From: a virus | Virus record (IMG/VR): IMGVR_UViG_3300005825_000044 | Span: 37,616-101,615 of that record | Strand: one strand, 5' to 3' | Length of the DNA: 64,000 nucleotides | Part shown: positions 8,706-51,280 of the stretch, in pieces | Layout of the letters: each line of letters begins with the position of its first letter | Numbering within the stretch: the first letter of the stretch is position 1 | Made by a program: the position numbers and the translations under genes | Notes under the pieces: model-generated | Told to the model about the DNA's origin: nothing | Databases searched by the model: none | What the model saw: the letters and a program-made list of their open reading frames with translations, nothing else

Positions 8706-8733
8706 CCCCGTGTCTCCTCGAGGAGACACGGGG
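8706..8733. repeat. dispersed palindrome copy 1, terminator-like
   Basis: The 20-bp core GTGTCTCCTCGAGGAGACAC at 8710-8729 is extended by CCCC/GGGG to a 28-bp perfect palindrome. It lies about 30 bases after a stop codon. On the minus strand it is followed by TGTTTTGC, so this copy could work as an intrinsic terminator. It is the only copy with a T-rich flank. Confidence 0.9.
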
Positions 8734-14941: not shown

Positions 14942-16857
14942 TCCGGTGTGTCTCCTCGAGGAGACACCGGCGCCGACACCGACACGATCTTCCCGAGCTG
15001 CTCATCGGAGAGCGCGATCCTGACGACCTCAGGCTCACCCTTCCGGACTTCCGCGTCGCGCGCCGCGTCGAGGTCGGCCGCTGCCTCCTCCTCCTCCGCC
15101 TTCCGGAACGCGTCGCGCAGCCTGATCAGGCGCCGGGCCCTGTGGTTCATCGCGCGGCGCCAAGCCTTGCTGACTCCGCCGTCGCCCACCTCGGGCTCCG
15201 GGATCTCGCCGTCGAGCCCGTCGTCGATCCCGAACCCCGCGATCGTGAGCGCCAGCGGTTGGTCGGCCCAGTCCGCGTCGATGTTTCCGAGCGGCACGTT
15301 GAAGACGTGGTCAGCGGCGAGCCTGCGGGCGTCACGCGGCGTCAGCGCGCCGCTGACGGTCTGCTCCGCGATCATCTTGGACATCACAGCGGGGTTGCGC
15401 TGCTGGATGCCGTTGCTAGTGAACTTCCAGTACCGGAAGCCGAGCCCGCGGAGCATGTCCCGCACGAGGTTGTCGAAGTCGACGCGCTCCGGCCCGAAGA
15501 CCTGCTCCTCGCAGAAGTCGAGCGCGGCCTCGGACGTCGCCCGGTTGAAGTCGCGGATGTCGCCGCGGACGATGCGGGGGAGCCTGAAGCTCATCCCGAC
15601 CTTGTCCATGTTGCGCTCGTCGTAGTTCTGGAACAGCGCGTCCTTGAGGTGCGCGTCGGTGAGCGACTTCACCTCGATGCGGACCCGCCCGTTGTCGGGT
15701 TGCATCTGCGCGGCGCTCGACGACTCAGCCTCGAGCACGAGGATCTTGTGGAAGTTCTTCTTGCCCTTGATCTCCTTCTCGATGTGGCCGCGGATCGCCT
15801 CGACCCCTCCGCTCACGAGCTTGCCACCGCTGACCGTGATCACGAGGGGCGGGATCGACTTGTTCTCGAAGTACGAGTAGTTGATCTCCTCCGCGAGTCG
15901 GGAGCCCAGCACGCTGAGCAGGTTGCCGATCCAGCGCGGCACCCCGTACGGGGTCCGTCGCGTCGCTGTGATCTTGAAGTGGATGACCTCGTTCGCGGTC
16001 TTCACGTCGGGGCTCTCAGAGACCGCGAGATCCCTCTCGTTCTTGTACCACTTGCCGGTGGCAGCGCTCATCACGCGGGGGTCGCCGAACTGCTTGAAGT
16101 ACGTGACGCCACCACCACCGTCGCTCTGCACGAAGCGGCGGAACTTGCGGTTCAGCTTCTCCTTGCCGAGCGTGTAGGGGCCGTCGAAGACCTCGACCTC
16201 CATCTCGACCGGTTCCTTGATCATGCCGAGCAGCGAGACCGACCAGCTCGGCATGTGAGCGAACTGCGTGACCTTTCCCTTCTTGTTGCGGATCACCTCC
16301 CAGTAGCCGTTGCCGGTGATCTCGATGTCGGCACGCGTCACGCGACGCAGCGCGACGAAGCTCGAGCCGGGGCAGCAGACGTTGAAGAACGCGTTGATCC
16401 TGACCTTCTCCGCGGCCGCGGCGACGCGCAGCTTTCCGAGACGGGCCTCGACCTCGGCGTCTGAGAACTCGGGCACGTCAGACGAACCGCGGACAGCGGC
16501 CTCGACCTCCATCATCGTGCGGATCTGGTCGACCGCGTCCTCCGCCTCGAAGTCCACGACCGGCTCGAGGTGGTGGCCGAACCCGTCGATGTTCGTGACG
16601 TAGGCGTCGACGCACTGCCTCAGGCTGTCGCTGTTCTCGTGCAGCGTCGTCAGCGTCTCCGGCGAGTACGGTGGCCGGATCGCCTCGGCGACCAGGCCCA
16701 CGTCTGCGCCGCGCTGCTCCCAGAGCCCGGAACCCTCTGCGACGCCGGAGAGCTGCTCGTCGACTGCCTTGAAGACCCTGGCGCGGTCGCCGTCGTCGCC
16801 GCCGAGCGTGCGCACGACCACCGTGGTCGTGCCTTCCCTATCGTTGCCGTCGGCCAT
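14938..16857 (-). CDS. portal protein
   Basis: The 639-residue product shows the portal pattern: a clip and wing region with LRQCVDAYVTNIDGFGHHLE, DIEITGNGYWEVIRNKKGKV, FKITATRRTPYGVPRWIGNL, ENKSIPPLVITVSGGKL, then a helical C-terminus (RDMLRGLGFRYWKF and ALTPRDARRLAADHV). The PYGVPRW motif is typical of PBSX-type portals. The dodecameric portal is the DNA gate of the head and the terminase docking site. The last residues (VSPRGDTPE) come from palindrome copy 3. Confidence 0.88.
   Translation of the reverse strand: MADGNDREGTTTVVVRTLGGDDGDRARVFKAVDEQLSGVAEGSGLWEQRGADVGLVAEAIRPPYSPETLTTLHENSDSLRQCVDAYVTNIDGFGHHLEPVVDFEAEDAVDQIRTMMEVEAAVRGSSDVPEFSDAEVEARLGKLRVAAAAEKVRINAFFNVCCPGSSFVALRRVTRADIEITGNGYWEVIRNKKGKVTQFAHMPSWSVSLLGMIKEPVEMEVEVFDGPYTLGKEKLNRKFRRFVQSDGGGGVTYFKQFGDPRVMSAATGKWYKNERDLAVSESPDVKTANEVIHFKITATRRTPYGVPRWIGNLLSVLGSRLAEEINYSYFENKSIPPLVITVSGGKLVSGGVEAIRGHIEKEIKGKKNFHKILVLEAESSSAAQMQPDNGRVRIEVKSLTDAHLKDALFQNYDERNMDKVGMSFRLPRIVRGDIRDFNRATSEAALDFCEEQVFGPERVDFDNLVRDMLRGLGFRYWKFTSNGIQQRNPAVMSKMIAEQTVSGALTPRDARRLAADHVFNVPLGNIDADWADQPLALTIAGFGIDDGLDGEIPEPEVGDGGVSKAWRRAMNHRARRLIRLRDAFRKAEEEEAAADLDAARDAEVRKGEPEVVRIALSDEQLGKIVSVSAPVSPRGDTPE
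14948..14967. repeat. dispersed palindrome copy 3
   Basis: A perfect GTGTCTCCTCGAGGAGACAC lies at the 3' end of the portal gene (read VSPRGDT) and directly before the GTG start of the MuF-like gene. Its right half supplies an AGGAG that could act as a ribosome site and would be closed off if the hairpin forms. Confidence 0.9.
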
Positions 16858-16861
16858 TGGT

Positions 16862-17158
16862 TCAGTCGGTGCGGGAGTTGCGCCCGCTGATCGCAGCCGC
16901 GGGCGTGCCGGAGCCGTACGTCGTCGTCTTGATCCGGACGTGCGTCACGGCCTGCGGCACCGGGTAGAAGCCAGCCGCGTTGATCGAGGTCGTGATGTCG
17001 CTGTAATTCGTACCGTCGATCGTGCCCTGGATCGAGAACGCGCACGCCGTCCCTGCGTCGATGATCTGCACGTACTTCTCGACGAGGTCCTCGACCTTCT
17101 GCGGGGCCCCCGTCGCTGTGGATGCCGGAACGGCCAGCGCGTAGTTCTCGTATCGCAT
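16862..17158 (-). CDS. small virion-region protein
   Basis: The 98-residue product (MRYENYALAVPASTATGAPQ) is beta-rich with a pattern common in small phage structural proteins (IQIIDAG-like text, FSIQGTIDGTNYSDI, VTHVRIKTTTYG). It lies directly upstream of the portal gene. A decoration or head accessory role is inferred from place. Confidence 0.6.
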   Translation of the reverse strand: MRYENYALAVPASTATGAPQKVEDLVEKYVQIIDAGTACAFSIQGTIDGTNYSDITTSINAAGFYPVPQAVTHVRIKTTTYGSGTPAAAISGRNSRTD

Positions 17159-17211
17159 CTCGTTCTCCTCCGCGCGAGGTTACTTCAGGGCGACCGGTGC
17201 CGCGAGAACCG

Positions 17212-17604
17212 CTACCACCCGAGTACGTCTTCACCCCTCGACGCCAGGAGGTAGGCCTCCGCCTCGTGCTCGGACGTGAACGCGACGTCGATGACAGGGA
17301 CCAGCCACTCGCCGTCGTCGTCGATCCGGATCCTGCCCGGCGGAGCAGAGCCGCGGCCCTTCTTCCGGGTCAGCGTCTCGTCGCGTCCGTGGCCGGCGAC
17401 GAGCTTGCCGGTGCGGGTGTCGCGCACGAAGGGCTCGACGTAGCCGAAGCGGTCCATCGACGCCTCGATCTCGTCGACGTCGTGCTCCTTCGGGTTGCGC
17501 GGCCACTGCCTGACGTCGGAGAGCCGGACCCAGCTCAGCGCGAGCCCGTGGTCATGCTCCGCATGCTTTGCCTTCTTCCGTGCCACCGCGGAGCACGGTC
17601 TCAC
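17212..17604 (-). CDS. ParB-like N-terminal domain protein
   Basis: The 130-residue product has the ParB/Srx N-terminal pattern: LSDVRQWPRNPKEHDVDEIE, then ASMDRFGYVEPFVRD, a GKLVAGHGRDETL box and VPVIDVAFTSEHEAEAYLLA. In this superfamily the GHxR box binds nucleotide. No helix-turn-helix or dimerisation part follows, so it is a stand-alone domain of the type often placed beside phage terminase, portal or methylase genes. Partition activity should not be assumed. Confidence 0.75.
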   Translation of the reverse strand: MRPCSAVARKKAKHAEHDHGLALSWVRLSDVRQWPRNPKEHDVDEIEASMDRFGYVEPFVRDTRTGKLVAGHGRDETLTRKKGRGSAPPGRIRIDDDGEWLVPVIDVAFTSEHEAEAYLLASRGEDVLGW

Positions 17605-17620
17605 GGAAGCCGCGCTGTGT

Positions 17621-17890
17621 TCAAGCAGGAACGTCGAAGACCACAGCGACCGAGAACTCGTTTCCGTACGAGCCCCTGACGGTGAACCCCGCAGCGCTGA
17701 CCAGGCGCTCCAGGTCAGCGGCGGTACCCCACATCACGCGGTAGCTCGCCACGTAGGCGCCGCGTCGCAGCACGTACTCGACGTCGGCATCCGGCGACGC
17801 GAGGGGGGCCGTGGTACGGACCTTCACGATGTGCGGGGACCCCGCATCCAGGAGCGCGCCCTGGATCTCCGCCAGCTTCTCGGCGCTCAC
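17621..17890 (-). CDS. hypothetical protein
   Basis: GTG at 17890 overlaps the TGA of the upstream gene. The 89-residue product starts MSAEKLAEIQGALLDAGSPH and has an alpha/beta pattern ending in GNEFSVAVVFDVPA. It is the penultimate gene of the operon driven by the promoter at 18669. Not recognised. Confidence 0.6.
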   Translation of the reverse strand: MSAEKLAEIQGALLDAGSPHIVKVRTTAPLASPDADVEYVLRRGAYVASYRVMWGTAADLERLVSAAGFTVRGSYGNEFSVAVVFDVPA

Positions 17891-18333
17891 AGCGCACCCC
17901 CGGCGGGCTTCGCGTAGGGGTCGAACAGCAGCTCAGAGCCGTCCCACACCTTGCCGTTGTAGGAGACCGTGACGCCCCTGCCGATCCTGCCGGTGGGGAA
18001 CGTCGATGCTCCCTCGCCGCTGGCGCTTCGCATGCCCGTCAGGGCTAGCTCGGCGCCCGATCCGTGAACGACAGCGGGCCGCTGCCAGCTCGCGTACGTG
18101 CGCACGAGGCGCCGGACGCGGCGGTTGTCGATCTTGCGATTCTTGATCGAGCGCTCGTAGTGCGCGTGGAGCAGGGTGCGTCCCTGGAAGAGCAAACCGT
18201 GCTGCTTGCCTCGCAGCTCCCGCATAGCCCGGAGATTGCCGGCAATGCGGTCGTCCGCGGCGAGCCAGACCGCGACGCCGTCGTGCCGGGCCTGGCGGAG
18301 AACCTCGAGAATGACTGCGGTGTCCTTCGTCAT
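17887..18333 (-). CDS. hypothetical protein
   Basis: ATG at 18333 has a strong GAGGAG ribosome site. The 148-residue product starts MTKDTAVILEVLRQARHDGV and contains a basic helical middle (RSIKNRKIDNRRVRRLVRTY) and a Gly/Ser-rich end. It resembles nothing I can name. It is the second gene after the promoter at 18669. Confidence 0.6.
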   Translation of the reverse strand: MTKDTAVILEVLRQARHDGVAVWLAADDRIAGNLRAMRELRGKQHGLLFQGRTLLHAHYERSIKNRKIDNRRVRRLVRTYASWQRPAVVHGSGAELALTGMRSASGEGASTFPTGRIGRGVTVSYNGKVWDGSELLFDPYAKPAGGAL

Positions 18334-18344
18334 GGCAGATCTCC

Positions 18345-18662
18345 TCAGCGCGCCCACTCCGGCACCCGTACCGCGAGGGTCGTGGTGTCCGCGTCGCGGG
18401 GCTCGAAGTGCTCGCAGCCCTCAGGGGTGACGAGGTAGAGCGCGGCCTCTGCCTTCTCCGTGGGGGCCCACACCGGGCGACCGCGCAACACGCGCGGAGC
18501 GACCAGGCCGCGCGCGTGCAGGGCTTGCCCGATGCCATAGGGCAGGTCCAAGCCTCCGCATTCTGCGGCGACCGAGCGGAAGAGGTCCTGCATGGTCAGG
18601 AACTGCTCGGCCGAGAGGGTTCCGATTGAGTAGCACTCGGTGATGTCGTTTCCGTTGACCAT
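18345..18662 (-). CDS. hypothetical protein, first gene after promoter module 1, possibly leaderless
   Basis: The ATG at 18662 falls at the expected transcription start, 7 bases after the TATAGT box, so the message may have no leader. The 105-residue product (MVNGNDITECYSIGTLSAEQ) ends in text typical of a small winged-helix fold (ARGLVAPRVLRGRPVWAPTE, AALYLVTPEGCEHF). No later in-frame start has a convincing ribosome site. DNA binding is only a possibility. Confidence 0.6.
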   Translation of the reverse strand: MVNGNDITECYSIGTLSAEQFLTMQDLFRSVAAECGGLDLPYGIGQALHARGLVAPRVLRGRPVWAPTEKAEAALYLVTPEGCEHFEPRDADTTTLAVRVPEWAR

Positions 18663-18668
18663 GAGAAG

Positions 18669-18697
18669 ACTATAAACCCGGTCCCCGGGGATGTCCA
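18669..18697 (-). promoter_or_regulatory. promoter module copy 1
   Basis: On the minus strand TGGACA (18697-18692) and TATAGT (18674-18669) are 17 bases apart, a near-consensus sigma70 promoter. The spacer contains the inverted repeat CCCGG-GGA-CCGGG. The upstream flank has A/T-rich ATTTCTCAAAATAAG and CGTACG. The same block recurs at four other sites to 26.2 kb. Confidence 0.85.
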
Positions 18698-18762
18698 CAC
18701 TTATTTTGAGAAATCGTACGAATCGTGTTTTCGCGCGAAATCGTCAAGTGACTGCGAAAGTG

Positions 18763-19089
18763 TCAAATGCAGTCCGGGGCCGCGCAGGAGCCCCTCTGCG
18801 GCAGGGCTCGCCCACAGGACCCGCAGCTCCGTGGATCGGATGCCCGGGCCCAGGCGTGCCGTATGGCGGCAGAGAGACCCCTCCCGGTGACCACTGCCCG
18901 GGGAGCCAGCCGGACCCAGCCCTCCGGGCTCTCGTAGCCGACCTCGACCGCGTGTCTCCTCGAGGAGACACGCTCGACTCGAACCGCGGCGCGGGCATGG
19001 GACGGCACCAGGAGCACGATGCCGGGGCCTGCCGGTTCAACCGTGCCGCTGATCGAGATCTCGTCGGTCACGTTGAAATCGAACTTCAC
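18763..19089 (-). CDS. hypothetical protein with C-terminal Cys cluster and in-frame palindrome
   Basis: The 108-residue product starts MKFDFNVTDEISISGTVEPA. Its C-terminus carries CGSCGRALPQRGSCAAPDC, a four-Cys cluster that probably binds zinc. Palindrome copy 4 lies in the middle of the gene and adds RVSSRRHA without breaking the frame. The start overlaps the stop of the upstream gene by four bases. It is the last gene of the operon started by promoter copy 2. Confidence 0.6.
   Translation of the reverse strand: MKFDFNVTDEISISGTVEPAGPGIVLLVPSHARAAVRVERVSSRRHAVEVGYESPEGWVRLAPRAVVTGRGLSAAIRHAWARASDPRSCGSCGRALPQRGSCAAPDCI
18952..18971. repeat. dispersed palindrome copy 4, inside a coding sequence
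   Basis: A perfect copy, extended by GC/GC to 24 bp, lies in the middle of the gene at 18763 and is read as VSSRRH. It is one of three copies internal to genes. Confidence 0.9.
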
Positions 19090-19337
19090 CTGCGAGCCTC
19101 AGCCGTGTTCTTGCGACGCTGCTCCGCGTAGAACGCGCCACGCTCTGCGAGCCCGAGCTGCGCGCGGCGTCGGGAACACCGGACCCGCCAGCAGAGGTAG
19201 AAGCCGGGCCCGTCGGTGCCGCCGCAGACCGCCTCGTCCGTGAGGTACTGACCCCGGATCGGCAGACCGCACCCGTCGCACCGGGTGTGCCGGGCGTAGC
19301 GCCCGGCGCGGTCCCTCTTCTGCTCCTCGCCGATCAC
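19086..19337 (-). CDS. small Cys-rich putative zinc-binding protein
   Basis: GTG at 19337 overlaps the upstream TGA. The 83-residue product is basic and contains RCDGCGLPIRGQ followed by a Cys in EAVCGG and LCWRVRCSRRR, a zinc-ribbon-like set of Cys pairs. It belongs to a long series of small Cys-rich proteins in this phage. Function unknown. Confidence 0.6.
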   Translation of the reverse strand: MIGEEQKRDRAGRYARHTRCDGCGLPIRGQYLTDEAVCGGTDGPGFYLCWRVRCSRRRAQLGLAERGAFYAEQRRKNTAEARR

Positions 19338-19672
19338 CGCGCACCGGCCCTCTCCGCCGCGGTCGCCTCGCGCAGCGGCCACAACCGAGCGCGAGCTGCG
19401 ATGCCGATCCGCAGGCAGGCGTCAGCGATCGTGTCGAAGCGCTCCGAGAGCCCGAGCACGCGGAGCAGGGTCGCGGCCTGGTCCCGGGTCCGGATCTTCG
19501 CGATGTCCCTCTCGATCGCGGCCGCATCCTCACGCGCGCGCTCCTGGCTCTCCGCCGGCAGCCATGTCGAGTACGCGGAGCCGAACGAGGTGCACAGCGT
19601 CCAGCCGTGCGCGCCCTCCGGGAGCACCGCGTCAGCCTCGTGAACCTCTTGCATGTCGTGGGTGAGCTTCAC
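19334..19672 (-). CDS. hypothetical protein
   Basis: GTG at 19672 overlaps the upstream TGA and is preceded by GGAGG. The 112-residue product starts VKLTHDMQEVHEADAVLPEG and has a helical second half (REDAAAIERDIAKIRTRDQA). It is the second gene of the operon from promoter copy 2. No family recognised. Confidence 0.6.
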   Translation of the reverse strand: MKLTHDMQEVHEADAVLPEGAHGWTLCTSFGSAYSTWLPAESQERAREDAAAIERDIAKIRTRDQAATLLRVLGLSERFDTIADACLRIGIAARARLWPLREATAAERAGAR

Positions 19673-19920
19673 CGCGAGCCTCCGTTCAGGGCGACCACAC
19701 CGGCGGGGGTCAACTCGATCGTCGCATCGCGCCCGGCTCCGCCGGAGCAAACCACAAGACCCTTCTTCGCGAGGCTAGCAGCCACACCGCCGGCGCTACG
19801 CCCGAATGCATCGCCGACGCTCGAAGCCCACACCGGGGCGAGCAGGTCGTTGCCGTCACGGTACTCGTCCTCGGCGACAGCCTTCAGGTAGGCACGTTCA
19901 AGAGCGGTTAGATGTTCCAT
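19669..19920 (-). CDS. small winged-helix-like protein
   Basis: ATG at 19920 has an AGGAGGAGG ribosome site. The 83-residue product starts MEHLTALERAYLKAVAEDEY and continues VWASSVGDAFGRSAGGVAAS, then LAKKGLVVCSGGAGRD and ELTPAGVVAL. This is the helix-helix-helix-wing arrangement of a small winged-helix domain. It is the first gene after promoter copy 2, so a regulatory role is plausible. Confidence 0.65.
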   Translation of the reverse strand: MEHLTALERAYLKAVAEDEYRDGNDLLAPVWASSVGDAFGRSAGGVAASLAKKGLVVCSGGAGRDATIELTPAGVVALNGGSR

Positions 19921-19961
19921 CGGTTCCTCCTCCTCGCCGGCGCATCGCCGACCGTGAGAAG

Positions 19962-19990
19962 ACTATAAACCCGGTCCCCGGGGGTGTCCA
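19962..19990 (-). promoter_or_regulatory. promoter module copy 2
   Basis: TGGACA (19990-19985), a 17-base spacer and TATAGT (19967-19962) are on the minus strand. Conservation with copy 3 extends over about 70 bases, from the GCGATGC leader to TTTCCGAAAATAAG and GTAC upstream. The upstream gene (19994) takes its stop codon from this block. Confidence 0.88.
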
Positions 19991-19993
19991 CAC

Positions 19994-20323
19994 TTATTTT
20001 CGGAAATCGTACAAAGCCCTCACTTTCTTGAGCAGCGCGGTCCCGGTCCGGTGGAGTCCGCGCGCTTCCCGAGCGCTGCCATACCCCTCGTGCTCCGCCC
20101 TCCCGGCTTCGACCGCGTCGTCGATCCCGTTGATTGCGTCGAGGATCATCCCGGCGACGAGGTCGTTCGGAACAGCCAAGTCTCCGCCGTGCTTCCTACC
20201 GAGGTGCTCGGCGACGACCTCTGCGGTTGCGCGGATGTCGGGGTCCTCGTCGTCGATGTACCGGTCGACGATCTCGACCTGGACGAACGACGCCTGGGCG
20301 GGGGTGAGCGGGAACATCTTCAC
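19994..20323 (-). CDS. hypothetical protein ending inside the promoter block
   Basis: GTG near 20323 overlaps the upstream TGA. The 109-residue product starts VKMFPLTPAQASFVQVEIVD and is acidic and helical (ATAEVVAEHLGRKHGGD). Its last residues (YDFRK) and TAA stop are encoded by the conserved upstream flank of promoter copy 2. Function unknown. Confidence 0.6.
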   Translation of the reverse strand: MKMFPLTPAQASFVQVEIVDRYIDDEDPDIRATAEVVAEHLGRKHGGDLAVPNDLVAGMILDAINGIDDAVEAGRAEHEGYGSAREARGLHRTGTALLKKVRALYDFRK

Positions 20324-20826
20324 GGCGACACCTCGACGCACTCAGCGGTCACGCGGAAGCTCGGAAGGTGCTCCCGACGAAGGTTCTCGATCGCGATCCG
20401 GCGCGCGAACACACCGGCGGTGTGGCTGACGATGTCGCGCGAGCCGGCACGGCGCGCGGTGTACTGCGTATCCCAGCCGGTGCCGGTGACGAGCACGCGC
20501 CAGCCAGCGACGTCGCACACCCCGCCGTCACCCGGGAGCAGCGAGAGGATCTCGGAAGTGAAGGGAGCGAGCGCGCTGTCCGCGTACTCGACGTCGAGGT
20601 ACGTGTTGCCGCCGGCGAGGATCTCCCCGGTGACCTCGCAGCGCCGCACATTCTCATGCTTGCGGGCGATGCTCTCGACGAGCGCGAGCGGGAGAGCCGC
20701 GTTCTTGATCTCGACGCGGATCGTGTAGCTGTACGTGCAGCGCTTCCTGGTGACCGACACGTCGCGCGACGTCCAGCCGGCAGCCTTGAGGGCGGTGCGA
20801 ATCTCCTTGGCGCGGTCCGTGATCAT
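20320..20826 (-). CDS. conserved phage-type protein (LPD29-like pattern)
   Basis: ATG at 20826 has an AGGAG site. The 168-residue product starts MITDRAKEIRTALKAAGWTS and continues RDVSVTRKRCTYSYTIRVEI. This resembles domains found in large polyvalent and accessory proteins of mobile elements (LPD29 type). The second half (LPGDGGVCDVAGWRVLVTG) is alpha/beta. It is the first gene after promoter copy 3. Biochemical role unknown. Confidence 0.65.
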   Translation of the reverse strand: MITDRAKEIRTALKAAGWTSRDVSVTRKRCTYSYTIRVEIKNAALPLALVESIARKHENVRRCEVTGEILAGGNTYLDVEYADSALAPFTSEILSLLPGDGGVCDVAGWRVLVTGTGWDTQYTARRAGSRDIVSHTAGVFARRIAIENLRREHLPSFRVTAECVEVSP

Positions 20827-20872
20827 CGTCGTTTCTCCTCTTTCTCGGTGGCGCATCGCCGACCGTGAGAAG

Positions 20873-20901
20873 ACTATAAACCCGGTCCCCGGGGGTGTCC
20901 A
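20873..20901 (-). promoter_or_regulatory. promoter module copy 3
   Basis: TGGACA (20901-20896), a 17-base spacer with CCCGG-GGA-CCGGG, and TATAGT (20878-20873) are on the minus strand. The block is nearly identical to copy 2 over about 70 bases. It drives the two-gene operon 20320-19994. Confidence 0.88.
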
Positions 20902-20943
20902 CACTTATTTTCGGAAATCGTACGAGGGCCGGAGAGTGCCGCC

Positions 20944-21909
20944 TTATTCGCGGGGTTCCGGGCCAGAACCGGCCCCATCGGTGCATCGGCTCATCAGCAC
21001 CCAGAGAGCGCGCGTGCACAGCACGTTCGGCGCTCGGTTGCCCTTCGCCTTGTGCTGCCGGCACGTCTTACCGTCGCGGCTCAGCTCCGCTGTCGAGCGG
21101 TGACCGCAGACGTCTAGCGCGACGATCACGCTCTCCTGCTTATGCACGGCCGCCGCGTAGCTGCCGACGCAGTGCTCCATCTCGCGGCCCTCGAGGCGCA
21201 GCAGACCCACCGTGTCGAGCAGGCGCGCGCAGCGCATCGGGCGCCACCAGCGCGGCACCGGCGCGAGTCGCTCTCCCTTGCTCGCGCGCTCGAGCAACCG
21301 CAGGTGCTCTGCCGAGACCCGCTGCGCTGCGGCCCTGTAGGTGTCCTCGACGCTCGGGCGCAGGTCACTCGCGCGCAGCTCGTCGGTGCGGTCCGCGTAG
21401 CGACCGCGCACGACCTGCCCGGCGACACGCTCCTCGCGCTCCCGCAGCATCGCGGATCTCCGCGGCGGGTCAGAGAACACTGCGATCAGCCAGCGCGCGC
21501 AGGCCACGTCATGCGGCGCGTCTAGGATGCCGACCGCCGCCAAGTCCTCATAATCCGAGAGCAGCCACAACGCGGGCGAAAGAGACGGCCACTCTGTGAG
21601 CCAGCGGTGAGCCTCTGCGCGCGTGAGCCCCCGGCTGATCTCGGACGGTGACTCGCCGAGCACGACGCGCGCGCGGATCGCTTCCGGAGCACTGGGGTAC
21701 GGCGCTCCTTCGAGAGCGCGAGCGACGTCCACGATGAAGCCGCCACCGCCGAACACTGAGGTGTACTGCGGGGTCAAGACCGCGATCGCAGCGGCTACCA
21801 ACTCACGGCGCGATTCGGGCACGCGCTCGAGCAGCGCGGCGTGCTCACGGAGCTTCTTCGACTCCGGCGCGAGACGCGCCGCGTCGATGATGGTCTGCGC
21901 GATCGTCAC
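20944..21909 (-). CDS. PcfJ-like protein
   Basis: GTG at 21909 overlaps the upstream TGA. The 321-residue product carries the PcfJ-like C-terminal pattern: LRLEGREMEHCVGSYAAAVH, SVIVALDVCGHRSTAELSRD and CRQHKAKGNRAPN. PcfJ-like proteins are common on conjugative plasmids and phages; their activity is not settled. The N-terminal half is helical and unassigned. It is the last gene of the operon from promoter copy 4. Confidence 0.75.
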   Translation of the reverse strand: MTIAQTIIDAARLAPESKKLREHAALLERVPESRRELVAAAIAVLTPQYTSVFGGGGFIVDVARALEGAPYPSAPEAIRARVVLGESPSEISRGLTRAEAHRWLTEWPSLSPALWLLSDYEDLAAVGILDAPHDVACARWLIAVFSDPPRRSAMLREREERVAGQVVRGRYADRTDELRASDLRPSVEDTYRAAAQRVSAEHLRLLERASKGERLAPVPRWWRPMRCARLLDTVGLLRLEGREMEHCVGSYAAAVHKQESVIVALDVCGHRSTAELSRDGKTCRQHKAKGNRAPNVLCTRALWVLMSRCTDGAGSGPEPRE

Positions 21910-22388
21910 AGCGCCACCCGCTCTGCATCTGCTCCGAGCCACGCCAGCACCCGGGAGCACTCGCTCTCGTGGAGACGCCCGATCGTGCAGGTAGTGAACC
22001 TGTCATCGCGCGCAGCGATCTCCTCGGCGTCCAGTGCAGCGAGCCGCTCGCTGCGACGATCGCTGCTGGCGCGCTCCATCGCGCAGGCATGCACCGCGCC
22101 GTCGCTCCCCAGGCGCAGCTCGTACCGCACCGCGCCCCAGTACGCGTACTGCTTGGCCTTCCCGCGCGCCTTCGCGCTCGAGACGCGCACGGCAGGGACC
22201 GGCCCGTGCGCGCGGATGTGCTCGGCGAGCCTGGCGCTGGGAGTCGTGTCCGGGAGACCCGCGGCGCGTGCCTCGAGCCGCGCGAGAGCGAAGTCGCAGT
22301 GGGCAGCCGCGCGGATCATGTCGGCCCGTCCGGCGAAGCGCGGCGCGGTGACGACCGCGGCGAGTAGCCGTGCGCTGCGGGTGCTCAT
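21906..22388 (-). CDS. hypothetical protein
   Basis: ATG at 22388 overlaps the upstream TGA. The 160-residue product starts MSTRSARLLAAVVTAPRFAG and contains KARGKAKQYAYWGAVRYELR and a C-terminal FTTCTIGRLHESECSRVLAW. The middle text suggests a small beta sheet. No family recognised. It lies between a zinc-ribbon protein and the PcfJ-like gene. Confidence 0.6.
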   Translation of the reverse strand: MSTRSARLLAAVVTAPRFAGRADMIRAAAHCDFALARLEARAAGLPDTTPSARLAEHIRAHGPVPAVRVSSAKARGKAKQYAYWGAVRYELRLGSDGAVHACAMERASSDRRSERLAALDAEEIAARDDRFTTCTIGRLHESECSRVLAWLGADAERVAL

Positions 22389-22714
22389 GACCGCACCGCC
22401 TCGTCGACGACGACGTCGAGCAGCATCCCGCAGCTGCACCGCGGCTCCGCGGAGCTACGCGCCCAGGACGACAGGGCTCGGCACTTCGGGCACTCCAGGG
22501 TGACCGCTGACAACGCGCTCCCGGTTCGGACGAGCGCGCAGTCTGTTACGTCTTCGTGCGACACGCCGTTCTTCCGCAACTCGTTGTAGGCCTCGATCGC
22601 TGCAACGTTCCCGTTCGCTGCCATGCGGCCCTTGAACCGCTCCTCGGTCTCGCCCTTCCCGGGAGAGTTGGGAGGCAGCACAGCGAACCGCATGGCAGCT
22701 CTGCGCCGGCTCAC
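22385..22714 (-). CDS. small zinc-ribbon protein
   Basis: GTG at 22714 overlaps the upstream TGA. The 109-residue product has a basic start and a C-terminal ribbon: ECPKCRALSSWARSS followed by RCSCGMLLD. Such ribbons bind zinc and often contact nucleic acid or protein. It is the second gene after promoter copy 4. Confidence 0.65.
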   Translation of the reverse strand: MSRRRAAMRFAVLPPNSPGKGETEERFKGRMAANGNVAAIEAYNELRKNGVSHEDVTDCALVRTGSALSAVTLECPKCRALSSWARSSAEPRCSCGMLLDVVVDEAVRS

Positions 22715-22908
22715 GACGCCACCTTCAGGGCAAGCTCCCAGATCCAGTGGTCGGAGTCGTCGAGCGGGCCCCCCAAGCTGTCGACGTCGAACGCGCGGGC
22801 GGCGTCCTCCGCGAGCTTCGTCATGTCGACCTCGCCGGTCCGCGCATCGACAGCTTCGCTACGGTGCGCGCGCATCCAGCTCAGCACTGCCGCCTTCGTG
22901 AAGTCCAT
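22711..22908 (-). CDS. small hypothetical protein, first gene after promoter copy 4
   Basis: The 65-residue acidic, helical product (MDFTKAAVLSWMRAHRSEAV) has a clear GGAGG site upstream of ATG 22908. It resembles small phage proteins made early after infection. No motif recognised. Confidence 0.65.
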   Translation of the reverse strand: MDFTKAAVLSWMRAHRSEAVDARTGEVDMTKLAEDAARAFDVDSLGGPLDDSDHWIWELALKVAS

Positions 22909-22952
22909 CTAGAAACCCTCCTCGGTCAGCGCCTCGCCGACCATCTGAGAAG

Positions 22953-22981
22953 ACTATAAACCAGGTCTCGGGGGGTGTCCA
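22953..22981 (-). promoter_or_regulatory. promoter module copy 4, variant spacer
   Basis: TGGACA (22981-22976) and TATAGT (22958-22953) are 17 bases apart. The spacer differs from the other copies at several positions (CCCGAGACCTGG instead of CCGGGGACCGGG), which weakens its inverted repeat. It drives the operon 22711 to 20944. Confidence 0.85.
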
Positions 22982-22990
22982 CACTTATTT

Positions 22991-23254
22991 TCAGGAATCG
23001 TACGAATCGAAAGGGACCTCCTTTACGAGGTATTCGACTGCCCCAGCGGTGCTATCGACCCGCATGTGAGGGTCGTATTTGTTGAGGACCCCGATCTCCC
23101 CACTGGCGATCATCGCCGCGGCCCTCCCCGCGGCCCTCCGCGCGAGCGTTTCCGCGCGGCGACGCGACGTGAACGCTCTCACCGGCCACTCGTCGCGGTC
23201 CGCGTACACCCCGGTCGTGCCGAAAACTACGTACACCGTACCTGTCGTTTTCAT
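22991..23254 (-). CDS. hypothetical protein ending inside the promoter block
   Basis: The 87-residue product (MKTTGTVYVVFGTTGVYADR) has a short beta start and a basic helix (SRRRAETLARRAAGRAAAMI), a pattern seen in small phage proteins. Its final residues and TGA stop lie in the conserved flank of promoter copy 4. Function unknown. Confidence 0.6.
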   Translation of the reverse strand: MKTTGTVYVVFGTTGVYADRDEWPVRAFTSRRRAETLARRAAGRAAAMIASGEIGVLNKYDPHMRVDSTAGAVEYLVKEVPFDSYDS

Positions 23255-23760
23255 CAGTCGTGCCTCCGTTCAGTTTCAACCCGCTTCCCGGCCTGGTACG
23301 TCGCGACGTGCCTGCCGTCTGCCCGGTCCAGCGTGACCCGTGCCACGGCGCGCACCGGCTCTGCGGAGTACTCGCTTGCCCTGAAGCTCAGCGAGCGGGC
23401 CTGACGCAGGGCCTCCCCGCGGTCCTCCGTGCGTAGGTACTCCCCGAGCGACTCCCCGGGGCGCTCCGGGGAGCACTCACAGACCACGTAGTCCGGCCGC
23501 GGTAGCGTGGGGTCCTGCACCACCGCTGCCCTCTCCGGGGCCCTGGCGCGGCCCCCGGGCCTGCGTAGCCCGTGCTTCTCGGCGACGGCGTCGAGCCGCT
23601 TCCAGAGCTTGTGCCGGCGGATCAGGTTGTACAGCGTCGGGACCGAGACCCCGAGCCGCGCCGCGGTCCGGTTCTTGTTCCCGTCGCACTCCAGGTACGC
23701 GGTGACGATCTCGTGCAGCGCCTTCGCGGCGTCCGTCGTCAGCTCGAGCGCGCTACCCAT
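23254..23760 (-). CDS. Fis-type helix-turn-helix protein
   Basis: The N-terminal 60 residues carry the HTH_8/Fis pattern: KALHEIVTAYLECDGNKNRT, AARLGVSVPTLYNLIRRHKL. In this family the pattern binds DNA. The rest of the 168 residues is basic then alpha/beta (REALRQARSLSFRASEYSAE). It may regulate the early operons, several of which start with shared promoters nearby. Confidence 0.75.
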   Translation of the reverse strand: MGSALELTTDAAKALHEIVTAYLECDGNKNRTAARLGVSVPTLYNLIRRHKLWKRLDAVAEKHGLRRPGGRARAPERAAVVQDPTLPRPDYVVCECSPERPGESLGEYLRTEDRGEALRQARSLSFRASEYSAEPVRAVARVTLDRADGRHVATYQAGKRVETERRHD

Positions 23761-24418
23761 CGGAGCGGTCCTCCTCGACTGTCAGCTCGTCGACGTCGAA
23801 CCAGAACCCGATCACGGGCCGACCGCTCGAGTGGATCGGCGCGGCGGGCTCGTCGAACTCCACGAGGTGCTTACCGGCGTTGCCAGGGTTCTCTGAGTGT
23901 CCGGCCACCGTGCCGCGGAGCCCGTCGAGCACGCGCGCGGCATCGCGCGTGTACGTCTCCGGTCGCTTGATGCTGACCCGCACTCGCTTGCCCTTCTCAA
24001 TCGTCTCCACATCGTCCTCCGTTGTTTCAACCGGTACCGCCGGCGTGCGTCCACACTTATTTTCGGAAATCGTACGACAGTCGCCGCACCAGCTCTCCGG
24101 GTGCAACATCGCGTCCCGGGCCGCGGCCCTGGAGCCGTGCCCGACGAGCGCGCTGTGGTCCTCGCACACCGTGAACCACGGCAGCTCCGGGTCGGTGTCG
24201 ATGCCGGCGAGGTCGGCCCTGTACAGCCCGACGAGAGTGCCCGTGCTCCGGGCCCGTCCCGTCGCGAACCTGCCAGCGGGCTCCATGCAGCGGAGGATCT
24301 CCCGGGCGCGGTTCCGGGCGTCGACGAGACGCGTCACGCCGCGACCGGCCTTGCGTCGCCGCGTGATCTCCCGACCGGCCCGGCGCACGAGCCGACGAAG
24401 CTCTGCCTCCGTGATCAC
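23753..24418 (-). CDS. composite ORF read through a degenerate promoter module
   Basis: The 221-residue frame has an N-terminal part that looks like one protein (MITEAELRRLVRRAGREITR to AMLHPESWCGDC) and a C-terminal part that looks like another (IEKGKRVRVSIKRPETYTRD, ending FDVDELTVEEDRSDG). They are joined by residues (RTISENKCGR) encoded by the upstream flank of the promoter module. A GTG at 24009 with a GGAGG site could start the second part alone. Either two genes were fused when the promoter decayed, or the C-terminal part is still made separately. Confidence 0.6.
   Translation of the reverse strand: MITEAELRRLVRRAGREITRRRKAGRGVTRLVDARNRAREILRCMEPAGRFATGRARSTGTLVGLYRADLAGIDTDPELPWFTVCEDHSALVGHGSRAAARDAMLHPESWCGDCRTISENKCGRTPAVPVETTEDDVETIEKGKRVRVSIKRPETYTRDAARVLDGLRGTVAGHSENPGNAGKHLVEFDEPAAPIHSSGRPVIGFWFDVDELTVEEDRSDG
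24049..24077 (-). promoter_or_regulatory. degenerate promoter module copy 5 (upstream half only)
   Basis: The flank GTACGATTTCCGAAAATAAG and GTGTGGAC are kept, but no TATAGT follows at 17 bases (TTGAAA instead). The block is read through in frame by the gene at 23753. It looks like a decayed promoter copy. Confidence 0.7.
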
Positions 24419-24507
24419 TGGACGGACCCCGCGATAGCGAGAGCGAAGATGTACGCGAACCCGGTCAGCAGAGCGACCTGGAGCGCTACCGTGAGCAGCC
24501 GCGTCAT
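24415..24507 (-). CDS. 30-residue predicted membrane peptide
   Basis: ATG at 24507 overlaps the upstream TGA as ATGA. The product (MTRLLTVALQVALLTGFAYI, then FALAIAGSVQ) is a single hydrophobic helix. Its stop overlaps the start of the next gene. Coupled starts on both sides support a real small gene. Function unknown. Confidence 0.55.
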   Translation of the reverse strand: MTRLLTVALQVALLTGFAYIFALAIAGSVQ

Positions 24508-24794
24508 CGCACGGACTCCTCGAGCAGCAGCAACTTGAGAACCGCGCCGTCTTCCAGGCCGAGCGCGTCGAACAGGTCGCTCGTCGCCAGGGTGTCTCCG
24601 GTGAGGTCCGCCTCGATGTCGCAGGCCTCCGTGAGCTTGCCCGACGCGGCTTCCGTGTCGCCGGTCTCGAGCAGGCGCTCGACCTCGAGCAGCGTGTCCT
24701 TCAGCCGGTCGCACTCAGCCGCGAAGTGGCTGGCGTGCTCCGCGACCCGCTCCTCGGCGCGCCGCAGCGCTGCCCCTCGCTCTCCGGTGATCAC
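24504..24794 (-). CDS. acidic coiled-coil protein
   Basis: GTG at 24794 overlaps the upstream TGA. The 96-residue product is helical and acidic with heptad-like spacing (RRAEERVAEHASHFAAECDR, KDTLLEVERLLETGDTEAAS). No family recognised. It lies between the Lar/SprT-like gene and the membrane peptide. Confidence 0.6.
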   Translation of the reverse strand: MITGERGAALRRAEERVAEHASHFAAECDRLKDTLLEVERLLETGDTEAASGKLTEACDIEADLTGDTLATSDLFDALGLEDGAVLKLLLLEESVR

Positions 24795-25633
24795 GGTGCA
24801 CCCCTCTTCGCGGCGACCGCCTTGCGGTCGTAGTAGCGGACCTTCTCCCGCCACTTCCGGGCGCGCAGCGCTGCACGGTGCTCGTCAACCTCCGCGCGCG
24901 CCAGCATCGCGCGGGCGTGCCGCTCCCTGCGCTCCGCCGCGGCCGCGCGCTTCTGCTCAGCGTCGGGCTCCGGCTTCGGTGCCGCAGCCACGCGCGGGAC
25001 GTAGTGCCCGGCTTCGAGTCGCTCTCCAAGCTCGCGCTCGATCACGTCGTCGATCCCGTACGCCAGCACTCCGTACTTCGCGGGGATCCTCGTCCAGTTC
25101 TCGACGGCAACCCCGAACACGGCGCGCGCGGTGCGCACCAGGAGGGAGCGATACGTCTCGTCGTGCCTGCTCTTCGGTGTCGCGGTGTGCACCAGCTCGT
25201 GGAGCAGCAGCTCGAGCGCGTGAGCGACGGTCGTGTCGCGCGCCAACGTCAGGACGATCCGCCGGGAGCCGAACGCCCTGCCGGACCCGCTCACGACGTG
25301 AGCCGTGTGCCGCACGTCGATCCGCGGCACACGGATCCTGAGCGCGCGACAGTACCGGTACGCCTCTGCCTGGAGGTCGACCCCGCGGAAGACGAGCGGC
25401 GTCTTCCGGCGTCGCGCCGCGTCGCGCCGCAGCTCTGCTCGCTTGACCTTGTAGAGCTGGATCCTGTTCCAGCTCTCGATCGTCTGCTCGGGGTCGCTGT
25501 TGGCAGCAGTGACCCTGCAGCACTCCAGCGTGAACACGATCCTCTCGCCACCGAACGGGTCGGGCTGTTCGCGCATCGCCGGTACCTCGCCGCAAGAGCA
25601 CGGCACCGCGGTCAGTTCTTGTTTCGGTGTCAT
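24791..25633 (-). CDS. Lar-like zinc finger fused to SprT-like metallopeptidase
   Basis: Residues 10-60 (VPCSCGEVPAMREQ, FTLECCRVTAANSDPEQTIE, SWNRI) match the restriction-alleviation (Lar) pattern of paired Cys and an ExxI-WN end. Residues 85-200 hold an SprT-like domain with the zinc motif LLLHELVHTATPKSRHDETY. The C-terminus is a long basic helix. Lar proteins of prophages modulate type I restriction; SprT-like enzymes cut DNA-protein crosslinks or act on replication proteins. The fusion in one 280-residue protein is uncommon. Third gene of the operon from promoter copy 6. Confidence 0.75.
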   Translation of the reverse strand: MTPKQELTAVPCSCGEVPAMREQPDPFGGERIVFTLECCRVTAANSDPEQTIESWNRIQLYKVKRAELRRDAARRRKTPLVFRGVDLQAEAYRYCRALRIRVPRIDVRHTAHVVSGSGRAFGSRRIVLTLARDTTVAHALELLLHELVHTATPKSRHDETYRSLLVRTARAVFGVAVENWTRIPAKYGVLAYGIDDVIERELGERLEAGHYVPRVAAAPKPEPDAEQKRAAAAERRERHARAMLARAEVDEHRAALRARKWREKVRYYDRKAVAAKRGAP

Positions 25634-25652
25634 CTGTAACGTCTCCCTTCGT

Positions 25653-25841
25653 TCAGTCCCTGGCGCACTTGCCGGGGTGTCCGTTCCCCAGGTAGCAGGC
25701 CCAGTCCTTCTGGCAGTCCGGCGAACGACGACGAGCGTCGATCGCGCGCAGCTCTTCGAGAGTCGGGCGGTCGCCCTTCACCATGCGCAGCTCGCGGTCA
25801 TTGAGAGCGAACGCCCTGCGGGTGTCGTCGGTGTTGACCAT
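25653..25841 (-). CDS. small hypothetical protein
   Basis: The 62-residue product (MVNTDDTRRAFALNDRELRM) is charged and ends with two Cys (DCQKDWACYLGNGHPGKC). It lies between the first gene of the operon and the Lar/SprT gene. Not recognised. Confidence 0.55.
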   Translation of the reverse strand: MVNTDDTRRAFALNDRELRMVKGDRPTLEELRAIDARRRSPDCQKDWACYLGNGHPGKCARD

Positions 25842-25842
25842 C

Positions 25843-26091
25843 TCAGCCGACCTCGCGCGTGTTGCGCTCGAATGTGCGGACCACTTCGGCGTCGAGGAGC
25901 GCGCCGTGCTTCGCGTTGAACTGACCGCTGTGAGGGTCGAGCTTCACCAGCTTGTGCGCGACGTACGCCCGAGCGACGCGCTCGAGGACAGCGTCGTCTT
26001 CGGTGTCGAGAGCGCGCGACAGAAACTCCTTGAGCCGCTTGAACGCCTCCTGCTGACGCGCCGCGAGAACCCATGCACCCTTTGCAGTCAT
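25843..26091 (-). CDS. small hypothetical protein, first gene after promoter copy 6
   Basis: ATG at 26091 has a GGAGACG site. The 82-residue product (MTAKGAWVLAARQQEAFKRL) is helical and basic with an acidic middle (LDTEDDAVLERVARAY). It is probably made early. No motif recognised. Confidence 0.6.
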   Translation of the reverse strand: MTAKGAWVLAARQQEAFKRLKEFLSRALDTEDDAVLERVARAYVAHKLVKLDPHSGQFNAKHGALLDAEVVRTFERNTREVG

Positions 26092-26135
26092 CTGCGTCTC
26101 CGTTCGTCCGCCGGCGCATCGCCGACCGTGAGAAG

Positions 26136-26164
26136 ACTATAAACCCGGTCCCCGGGGATGTCCA
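26136..26164 (-). promoter_or_regulatory. promoter module copy 6, beside a divergent regulator gene
   Basis: TGGACA (26164-26159), a 17-base spacer with CCCGG-GGA-CCGGG, and TATAGT (26141-26136) are on the minus strand. The upstream flank is replaced by a T-run and the start of a plus-strand gene, so a regulator made from that gene could act here in cis. Confidence 0.87.
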
Positions 26165-26173
26165 CTGCTTTTT

Positions 26174-26629
26174 TTGAAAATCGACAACAGCCAGAATGCG
26201 GGGGTGACGCGGCGTAGGGTCGGCGATATGCGGGGAGTACCCGCACGTGAATCCGTACCGGCCGCGGCGACGCGCCGGCCACCCGAACCGGAGCCCGTCG
26301 TCGTGGAGGCTGCGGCCGCGCCGGGGAGCGACCCCTGGGCGGTGCTGCCGTGGGAGCAGCACGAGGAGGCTCGGCGCGCCGTCGCGGAGAACCCGGAGGG
26401 GATGACCCTCGAACTGATCGGCTCATGGATGGGCGTGACGCGGGAGCGCGTGCGACAGATCGAAGTCAGCGCGCTCGCGAAGCTCAGGACGGAGAGCGGC
26501 GCGGACACCGGTGAGCACGACGGCGTCGTGTTCGCGATCATCGACTGCCGGCGCTGCGGCGAGCCCTACGCGCGGCTCGGCAACGCGGTCTACTGCGAGC
26601 TGTGCGAGTCGAAGCGTCGCCGTCGATGA
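26174..26629 (+). CDS. sigma region 4-like HTH protein (candidate early regulator)
   Basis: This is one of only two convincing plus-strand genes. After a Pro/Ala-rich N-terminus, residues 78-108 read MTLELIGSWMGVTRERVRQI and EVSALAKLR, the helix-turn-helix of sigma70 region 4. A zinc ribbon follows (CRRCGEPY, then YCELCESKRRRR). There is no region 2, so it is not a full sigma factor. It starts within ten bases of promoter copy 6. The listed start is TTG at 26174; ATG at 26228 with an upstream AGGG is an alternative. It could bind the shared promoter or modify host RNA polymerase. Confidence 0.75.
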   Translation: MKIDNSQNAGVTRRRVGDMRGVPARESVPAAATRRPPEPEPVVVEAAAAPGSDPWAVLPWEQHEEARRAVAENPEGMTLELIGSWMGVTRERVRQIEVSALAKLRTESGADTGEHDGVVFAIIDCRRCGEPYARLGNAVYCELCESKRRRR

Positions 26630-49413: not shown

Positions 49414-50808
49414 TCACGCAACCCTTACCCGGGAGACGCGCTGCGCGGCACCGAGTAGCACGGAGCGGGCCCACTCCGAAGTCGTGGTACCGGCCCGGTC
49501 AGCGGCCCAGTCCAGCTCCGCGCGCTCTGTAGCGGAGAACCGGGCCGCGAGCCTGGAGCCCTCCGGAGGGCCCCCTGGCAGCTCTACGCGCTCCCCCGGT
49601 GCGGGGCGGGTACCGTCAGGCGGCACCTCGGGCGCCGGCCTCTGCGTGTCTCCTCGAGGGGACACGGTCTGGTAGCGGTGACGGGCACAGGCCCGGCAGC
49701 CACCGGAGGGGAACCTCGAGCCGGGTTCACCGAGATCGTGCCCACGCCCGCACCGCGTCCTCCTGTTGGTGAGTCCCGCATCGACCGAGACCGCGCGCTC
49801 CGGCGACCAGCCGAGCTTGTCGACCCTGCCGACGATCGCCGAGTAGCTGATACCGGTGACGTCCGACCACTCCGTGATCGTGCGGCTGACACCGTCGACC
49901 ACTAGGACGCGGGCGTCCGGTCGCTTCTTCGGGGCCTCCTTCTTCGGCTTCGCTGGCGCCGGGATCGCGACGGGTGTCGACGGCGCGGTACCCAGGGCGC
50001 GATGCAGCTCCGCGTCGTCGCGGACCGCCGCGCTGAACAGCTTCCGGACGCGGGTCTCGAGCTGCCGGATCCTCTCGCGCGTCACGCGCCATCGCGCGCC
50101 GACCTCGCGGAGTGCCACGCGGTCTCGCGGGTCGCACCAGACCCTGCGTTCGAAGACGTCGCGCTGCCGCGCGTCGAGCGTGGCGCGGAACCGGTCCACT
50201 GCGGCACTCACCGCCGCGAGGTCGTCGTCGCTGCCGACCCGCTCGTCCTGCAGCTCGCCGGGGTCCGCGACGAAGTCGAGGAAGCACGAGCTGTCGGGGT
50301 CGTCCCCGACGCGTTCGTCCAGCGACAGCGTCGGGCCGCGGCGCAGCGCGGCGAGCACGCGGCGCACAGTCTCCGGCTTGGACCTGTATCTCTCAGCGAC
50401 GACGGCGAGCGCGGCGTCGTGGCCGAGACCCTCGGCGAGCGCGGCGTCGTAGTCGACCAGGTACTTCTTGCGGTTCAGGTCGGCGCGGTTCACCTCTGCG
50501 GCGTCCTGCGCCGCGCGCCTGACGTGGTTCTTGATCCACCACGTCGCGTACGACAGGAAAAGGACGCCCTGGTCGGGATCGAACAGCTCGATCGCCCGCA
50601 GCACCCCGAAGACGCCCTCGCTGACGAGGTCGTCAAGCTCGAGCCTGCCCCGCGCGAGCGGGAGTGCCCGGGACGCGTGGTAGGCGACGGCGCGCATCGT
50701 CGTGGTCACGAGCATGTCGCGCGCCGCGGCGTCACCTGCCCTGGCCCTCACCGCCAGCTCGATCTGCTCCTTCGCTGGGAGCGGCCTCTTGAAGAGCGCG
50801 GCGTCCAT
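49414..50808 (-). CDS. sigma70-family RNA polymerase sigma factor with extended C-terminus
   Basis: ATG at 50808. Residues 57-98 match sigma region 2 (LELDDLVSEGVFGVLRAIEL, FDPDQGVLFLSYATWWIKNH), and residues 210-258 match region 4 (VALREVGARWRVTRERIRQL, ETRVRKLF). About 200 further residues follow: a segment like nuclease-associated DNA-binding modules (RTITEWSDVTGISYSAIVGR, GWSPERAV), a Cys/His cluster (RCGRGHDLGE, GGCRACARHRY), residues encoded by palindrome copy 8, and a last helical part. It may direct RNA polymerase to phage promoters. Which ones is unknown. Confidence 0.8.
   Translation of the reverse strand: MDAALFKRPLPAKEQIELAVRARAGDAAARDMLVTTTMRAVAYHASRALPLARGRLELDDLVSEGVFGVLRAIELFDPDQGVLFLSYATWWIKNHVRRAAQDAAEVNRADLNRKKYLVDYDAALAEGLGHDAALAVVAERYRSKPETVRRVLAALRRGPTLSLDERVGDDPDSSCFLDFVADPGELQDERVGSDDDLAAVSAAVDRFRATLDARQRDVFERRVWCDPRDRVALREVGARWRVTRERIRQLETRVRKLFSAAVRDDAELHRALGTAPSTPVAIPAPAKPKKEAPKKRPDARVLVVDGVSRTITEWSDVTGISYSAIVGRVDKLGWSPERAVSVDAGLTNRRTRCGRGHDLGEPGSRFPSGGCRACARHRYQTVSPRGDTQRPAPEVPPDGTRPAPGERVELPGGPPEGSRLAARFSATERAELDWAADRAGTTTSEWARSVLLGAAQRVSRVRVA
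49646..49665. repeat. dispersed palindrome copy 8, inside the sigma factor gene
   Basis: The sequence is GTGTCTCCTCGAGGGGACAC, one change from perfect. It is read VSPRGDT in frame at about residue 382 of the sigma factor, between two predicted domains. Confidence 0.88.
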
Positions 50809-50821
50809 GGCAACCAGAAGT

Positions 50822-51280
50822 CTACCCGTGTCTCCTCGAGGAGACACGTCGCCGAAGAGACTTGTAGTCGCGCTCCCAAACAGAGAAGTCGACATCGAGC
50901 CCGAGTGCCGCGAACGCCCGCGTCACGGTACGCAGCGAAGGGTTGCACCGGGGATCCTCGAGCTTCGCTACGCGCTGTTGCGTGAGCCCCGCTAGCTTGG
51001 CGAGACCTACCTGCGTGTGGCCGTACCTACAACGAGCCCGACGAATCAGCACCGCGATAGCTATGCGGGGGTCAACGAAGATGCGACGCCCCCTACGATC
51101 GCGCGGTTCGGGAGGCAGATTCCCGTGTGCCATGTGAGCGCAGAGCCACCCCTCTAACGCCTCTGTCGCGGCCGCCCACAATTCGTCGCGACTGGCTGCG
51201 TAGGTCTGACACCCCGGCGCGTCGGGGAACTCTGCTAGCCAGTGACTACCCTCTCGGCGAAAGCGGACCGCGTAGTGCAT
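50822..51280 (-). CDS. HicB-like protein with XRE helix-turn-helix
   Basis: The first 50 residues have the HicB antitoxin fold pattern (MHYAVRFRREGSHWLAEFPD, APGCQTYAASRDELWAAATE). Residues 80-135 hold an XRE helix-turn-helix (HTQVGLAKLAGLTQQRVAKL). HicB proteins usually neutralise a HicA toxin and repress their own operon. No HicA-like gene is next to it, so it may act as a repressor. Palindrome copies 9 and 10 lie at its 3' end and 39 bases before its start. Its last residues (RVSSRRHG) come from copy 9. Confidence 0.75.
   Translation of the reverse strand: MHYAVRFRREGSHWLAEFPDAPGCQTYAASRDELWAAATEALEGWLCAHMAHGNLPPEPRDRRGRRIFVDPRIAIAVLIRRARCRYGHTQVGLAKLAGLTQQRVAKLEDPRCNPSLRTVTRAFAALGLDVDFSVWERDYKSLRRRVSSRRHG
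50827..50848. repeat. dispersed palindrome copy 9, at the 3' end of the hicB-like gene
   Basis: A perfect core at 50828-50847 with C/G flanks lies in the last codons of the hicB-like gene and 20 bases before the sigma factor ATG. Confidence 0.92.

Follow-up and report, generated by a model that had tools for sequence, protein, structure and literature searches.

A repeated sigma-70-type promoter-like unit with a 5' leader in a virus genome, and analogous private units in its relatives

Copies of the unit

A stretch of 64,000 nucleotides (hereafter the window; positions 37616-101615 of the 101,615-bp IMG/VR virus record IMGVR_UViG_3300005825_000044, or G000) carries near-identical modules which are, at a probability we set near 0.8, copies of one strong sigma-70-type promoter with its 5' leader, together starting about seven operons. 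The sequence TGGACA-N17-TATAGT is found exactly at window positions 18669, 19962, 20873, 22953 and 26136, in all cases on the minus strand; these are the five hexamer pairs listed by the first-pass annotation of this DNA, and the number expected by chance in the window is 0 (100 dinucleotide shuffles). Two more copies, at 19179 and 1928 of the record, fall outside the window, for a total of seven, all on the minus strand. The 19179 copy heads the replication operon, and the promoter class is therefore genome-wide and not regional. The first-pass annotation suggested one switch for the whole region; the class extends beyond that region, and any trans factor acting on it is at most a candidate. 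The seven copies are the sole sites in the 101.6-kb record matching the sigma-70 hexamers at 10 of 12 positions; one further site (9/12, record position 24189) is also located ahead of replication genes.

The hexamers are close to TTGACA/TATAAT, with the same 10/12 match in each of the seven copies, and the spacer, nearly the same in sequence from copy to copy, is invariably 17 nt long, within the 16-18 nt expected for a sigma-70-type promoter. The 22 nt upstream of the -35 are 66% A+T vs. 32% for the genome, and the flanks of the seven copies, as of a half copy found in the window, rank among the most A+T-rich 30-mers of the genome. The discriminator is CTTCTC (CTTCAC in one copy), no TG of the extended -10 (TGn) type precedes the -10, and the base seven past the -10 is an A in 7/7 copies. 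The extent of the shared flank differs among copies, breaking at the -35 in those at 24049, 26136 and 1928; up to 70 bp had been reported, and the identity between the 19962 and 20873 copies in fact reaches 95 nt (93%).

In six copies a G+C-rich hairpin of 15-19 nt begins at most 5 bases from the predicted 5' end and stops before the Shine-Dalgarno site; it lacks a U run, and sits upstream of the ribosome site. The leaders vary, yet still pair, either as a GGCG-AUG-CGCC core with differing outer pairs, or as GGUCGGCG-AGG-CGCUGACC, or as GGUCGGC-GAUGA-GCCGGCC. In the remaining copy, at 18669, the predicted transcription start site (TSS), 18662, coincides with the first base of the ATG that opens gene 18345-18662, so that the mRNA made from this copy would be leaderless. 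Leader hairpin, leaderless copy, the two copies outside the window and the cassettes private to the relatives were all absent from the first-pass annotation.

These features suggest the following course of events. The RNA polymerase of the host would recognise the two hexamers at their 17-nt spacing, with assistance from the A+T-rich flank in the role of an UP element, and transcription would begin at the A seven bases past the -10, or on the ATG itself at the 18669 copy. The operons started in this way would be those of the small-gene region, the replication operon and the left end. In the six copies provided with a hairpin, this would most likely guard the 5' end or keep the ribosome site open. 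Copies would be homogenised within a genome, presumably by recombination, and replaced wholesale between lineages, a process which would leave the layout conserved and the sequence not.

Private cassettes in relatives

Relatives were identified by a DNA polymerase profile, which yielded eight IMG/VR records (G002-G009), each read over its whole length. None is close, the DNA polymerase of the nearest being about 57% identical. The unit described above was found in none of the eight, as judged by exact-pattern search of six records and by the repeats of G002 and G003, which do not include it. Five relatives (G002, G004, G005, G006 and G007) feature a repeated promoter-like unit of their own, accompanied by a hairpin in all but one, and the cassette sequences are unrelated from phage to phage. 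The search among relatives envisaged by the first-pass annotation thus failed to recover the module, but recovered analogous multi-copy promoters with a spacing of 17. In the four relatives with hairpins the same layout is found: a -35, 17 bases, a -10, usually an A seven bases on, a G+C-rich hairpin, a Shine-Dalgarno site and a start codon. Layout, not letters, appears to be what is kept.

The eight copies in G002 were collected by the -10 region alone, and have the form TGGCNN-17-TATACC-TAAATC-A, followed by the hairpin GGGG-NNNN-CCCC and by AAGGAG. TGGC lies exactly 17 nt upstream of the -10 in 8/8 copies, spacers being 64% and flanks 40% identical; a spacer fixed in length and drifting in sequence is the mark of a promoter. 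G002 copies carry the TG ahead of the -10, and the one at 66540 has no leader or next to none, like the 18669 copy. At least eight copies of TTGNNN-17-TATATC, with the -35 variants TTGACA and TTGACG, and the hairpin CGGGG-CUCG-CCCCG were found in G004; eleven copies of a TTGACC type with CATAAC and the hairpin GGGC-AACGGA-GCCC in G006; three copies of a TGG type with GATACT, at 17 spacing, in G007. One position is shared, a copy being located between the primase and the UvrD-like helicase in G000, G002, G004 and G006; in G002 this is a re-formed TGGACA-17-TAGGTT. The TTGCAC unit of G005 (40% GC) overlaps the beginning of genes that form a paralogous family, at 0-6 kb and 92-106 kb.

A hairpin follows the predicted start site in 6/7 copies in G000, 7/8 in G002, 8/8 in G004, 11/11 in G006 and 2/3 in G007. 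Pairing survives change, GGGG/CCCC becoming GGG/CCC in G004, and the loop-closing C-G becoming U-A in G002. What speaks for the hairpin, read from sequence, is that it takes up one and the same position in four genomes, the sequences being unrelated, and that pairing is retained through change.

Several observations weigh against the promoter-leader interpretation. Hairpins with four G-C pairs are found in 41-44% of random 44-nt windows and in about 12% of 20-nt windows of these G+C-rich genomes (17% and 3%, respectively, in G006), so that their presence in one genome is weak evidence, and G000 keeps pairing mainly via changes on the 3' side rather than double substitutions. The -10 hexamers of the relatives are imperfect (TATACC, CATAAC, GATACT), the G007 copies have no obvious A+T-rich flank, and the 17 spacing in G004 and G006 was in part built into the patterns by which their copies were sought. 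The seven copies of the G005 unit lack a hairpin, and no such cassette was seen in G003, G008 and G009. The promoter assignment made by the first-pass annotation is supported by the 10/12 hexamer match, the A+T-rich flank and the position just ahead of start codons, and most strongly by the analogous promoters of the relatives.

A broader, tentative proposal, to which we lend less than even credence, is that cassettes in this clade evolve in concert, all being rewritten together, the primase/helicase copy included. Relatives whose replication proteins are about 45-57% identical would then use unrelated promoter sequences, which might follow the sigma factor of the host or a phage sigma region-4 protein, and might serve as joints for gene exchange. 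The clade would provide a case for testing, its promoter sequences being exchanged in full from phage to phage under a preserved copy number, spacing and leader hairpin and a single shared syntenic position. What drives promoters to be homogenised in phages, and what 5' hairpins do on phage transcripts, become directly testable, and promoters of uncultured phages could be sought as repeated A+T-rich units heading operons.

Genes behind the copies

Behind each of the copies at 26136, 22953, 20873 and 19962 comes a short series of small genes, very few of which match a family, and the series ends near the next copy. The earlier description of one short operon per copy, ending at the next, holds for these four and not for the 18669 copy, whose next neighbour downstream is about 37 kb away, portal and other structural genes lying in between. 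The operon behind the 19179 copy is long, and includes the UvrD-like helicase, the DNA polymerase and a RecA/UvsX-like recombinase. Gene content suggests that the cassettes act early. No copy is found in the window from 27 kb to 64 kb, where the terminase and a full sigma factor are encoded; since the copies serve several parts of the genome and not this one, there may be room for a second class of promoters that the phage's own sigma factor, a candidate reader of other, later promoters, would recognise. Scans of the window for Rfam families and tRNAs gave no matches.

The half copy noted at 24049 by the first-pass annotation was confirmed as flank and TGGAC only, spacer, -10 and leader being lost. 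The open reading frame (ORF) spanning it is likely a fusion of two genes. The -10 of intact copies holds an in-frame TAG stop, and loss of the -10 seems to have fused the genes here.

Table 1. Cassette copies and putative regulators in the window (window coordinates)
Feature	Position	Strand	Details
Cassette copy, predicted leaderless start	18660..18721	-	Flank, -35 at 18697-18692, 17-nt spacer, -10 at 18674-18669, predicted TSS 18662
Full cassette copy	19939..20014	-	Flank, -35, spacer, -10 at 19962-19967, predicted TSS 19955, leader hairpin; ahead of genes from 19669-19920
Full cassette copy	20850..20925	-	Predicted TSS 20866, leader hairpin; ahead of genes 20320-20826 and 19994-20341
Full cassette copy	22924..23005	-	Predicted TSS 22946, variant spacer, variant leader still pairing; ahead of 22711-22908 and following genes
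Half copy	24049..24077	-	Flank and TGGAC, no -10 or leader; inside ORF 23753-24418
Cassette copy, different A+T-rich flank	26113..26185	-	Predicted TSS 26129; ahead of 25843-26091 and following genes; head to head with the sigma-region-4 gene
Small protein, sigma-70 region 4 and C-terminal zinc-ribbon-like motif	26174..26629	+	Pfam Sigma70_r4, 1.5e-9; PDB sequence matches to sigma region 4
Protein with N-terminal helix-turn-helix (Fis/PucR type)	23254..23760	-	Domain match
Phage sigma factor, regions 2, 3, 4	49414..50895	-	Domain match; phrog_351, 5.7e-43

Alternative readings

The modules might carry a single operator, a phage regulator (the 26174 or the 23254 protein) binding the spacer repeat or the flank palindromes and switching all copies together. 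The exact spacer repeat, CCCGG-GGA-CCGGG, is found nowhere else in the window, and the 26174 gene, which encodes region 4 only and no region 2, lies on the strand opposite to the 26136 copy, its start 10 bases away from the -35, with region-4 homologues in G002, G005, G006 and G007. We nevertheless consider this operator unlikely. The spacer repeat is intact in 5/7 copies, retaining 3/5 pairs in 22953 and 4/5 in 19179; among the eight sites (half copy included) the flank sequence TCGTACGA is perfect in four, with TTGTACGA in two, and absent in two, and TTTCCGAAA is exact in three only. In the relatives the repeat is missing and the spacers drift, an outcome which the first-pass annotation had itself named as refuting, and which touches its operator part only and not the promoter. 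The binding sites it saw in the spacer repeat, TTTCCGAAA and TCGTACGA are unsupported, as these elements differ from copy to copy and have no counterpart in the relatives. Cassettes are moreover found in G004, where a region-4 homologue was not detected in a record of 87 kb that is possibly incomplete. This weakens the case that the cassettes need the region-4 protein; it is still a plausible partner, which could regulate the class through binding to the -35. No link between the 23254 protein and the cassettes was found.

The leader hairpin might instead be a put- or nut-like RNA element of antitermination, by which few promoters serve long operons. In most copies it comes directly after the start site, and the operon behind the 19179 copy is indeed long, but the hairpin sequence is wholly different between relatives, leaderless copies have none, and the put element of phage HK022 is much longer than the hairpin seen here. 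We regard this function as improbable.

Still poorer are the prospects of the spacer repeat, together with TTTAT, as a terminator for incoming transcription. The module would then be a terminator-promoter joint comparable to PeSL, the promoter early stem-loop cassettes of T4-like phages, as named where PMC4503421 and PMC5931544 cite them. A consensus scan rates CCCGGGGACCGGG-TTTATAGTCT as terminator-like in 4/5 window copies, but the stem has five pairs only and a poor T run, is broken in two copies, and is missing from the spacers of the relatives. A mobile or recombination repeat spreading between genes, with no role in transcription, would fit the differing extents of shared flank and their breaks at the -35 in 24049, 26136 and 1928, but is very hard to reconcile with the single orientation, the placement always just ahead of a start codon, hexamers better conserved than the spacer, and the 17-nt spacing kept in unrelated units of the relatives.

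Database searches and other repeats

An exact scan of IMG/VR for the module gave one chance match only, in a contig with 39% GC, and a scan of genome contigs gave none. No confirmed relative emerged from an IMG/VR scan with the 26174 region-4 protein, no match from a DNA similarity search of phages, and a portal search returned two distant relatives, both devoid of such modules. The DNA polymerase search of GTDB genomes hit one 6.5-kb contig of a metagenome-assembled genome labelled Planctomycetota (37% identity) and one weak match, and no host was assigned.

A perfect palindrome, GTGTCTCCTCGAGGAGACAC, occurs exactly at window positions 8710, 14948, 18952, 26632, 37418, 50828 and 51319, and with 1-2 mismatches at 12833, 40721, 49646, 56620 and 62058. 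It is often in frame at gene ends, encoding the peptide VSPRGDT, and found no matches in an IMG/VR scan. Dispersed palindromes of their own are present in relatives: TGTTCACCCGGGTGAACA (21 copies in G002), AAACCCGGGTTT (16-21 copies in G006, G008 and G009) and AGTCTCCCCGGGGAGACT (4 copies in G007). A 372-bp gap between tail and replication genes (record positions 23877-24248), palindrome-rich and A+T-richer, is a candidate replication origin. Intein-like insertions, judged by reading the sequence, are found in the UvrD-like helicase (record 15210-18098) and in the large terminase (window 54061-56652), and the window segment 30423-32726 encodes a long protein made up of many STTVGQVTPSTATTV-type repeats.

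Comparison with known systems

Repeated strong phage promoters, cassettes combining promoter and stem-loop, start-codon repeats and predicted leaderless phage promoters are already known. Promoter, 5' hairpin and ribosome site in one unit, homogenised within genomes and unrelated between them, were not found described in the literature searched.

Early promoters of T4 combine UP, -35, TGn and -10 elements (PMC2988021), and 58 early promoters with 17-bp spacers are found in the Twort-like Kayvirus (PMC7698491). As in these phages, many copies of a strong sigma-70 promoter reside in one genome; unlike them, the homogenised unit of G000 runs through spacer and leader, lacks TGn, and features a 5' hairpin beside the ribosome site. 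Cluster O mycobacteriophages have predicted SigA promoters in A+T-rich gaps, some of them leaderless, and a 17-bp dyad in over 30 copies (PMC4351075); near-identity of copies and a hairpin leader, as in the promoters analyzed here, do not figure in their description.

In cluster K mycobacteriophages, the start-associated sequences (SAS/ESAS) are short repeats present in 11-19 copies before the start codons of non-structural genes, the ESAS consensus differing between subclusters; SAS has no -35/-10 pair, and its proposed role is in translation (PMC3203893). Repeats ahead of start codons, with a sequence specific to each phage group, are common to both systems. The 13-bp SAS GGGATAGGAGCCC had 0 matches in the window, with up to 2 mismatches allowed.

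PeSL cassettes were reportedly described in T4-like phages by Arbiol (2010) and Comeau (2014), and their stem-loop is said in the latter work to be a terminator. In PeSLs an early promoter and a stem-loop are repeated in gene-rich variable regions, as possible joints for the shuffling of small genes, and the modules of G000 may be comparable; repeated promoters are found here in a region of uncharacterised small genes, and also at the replication operon. The two differ in the stem-loop, which in G000 lacks a U run and is placed downstream of the predicted start site and before the ribosome site.

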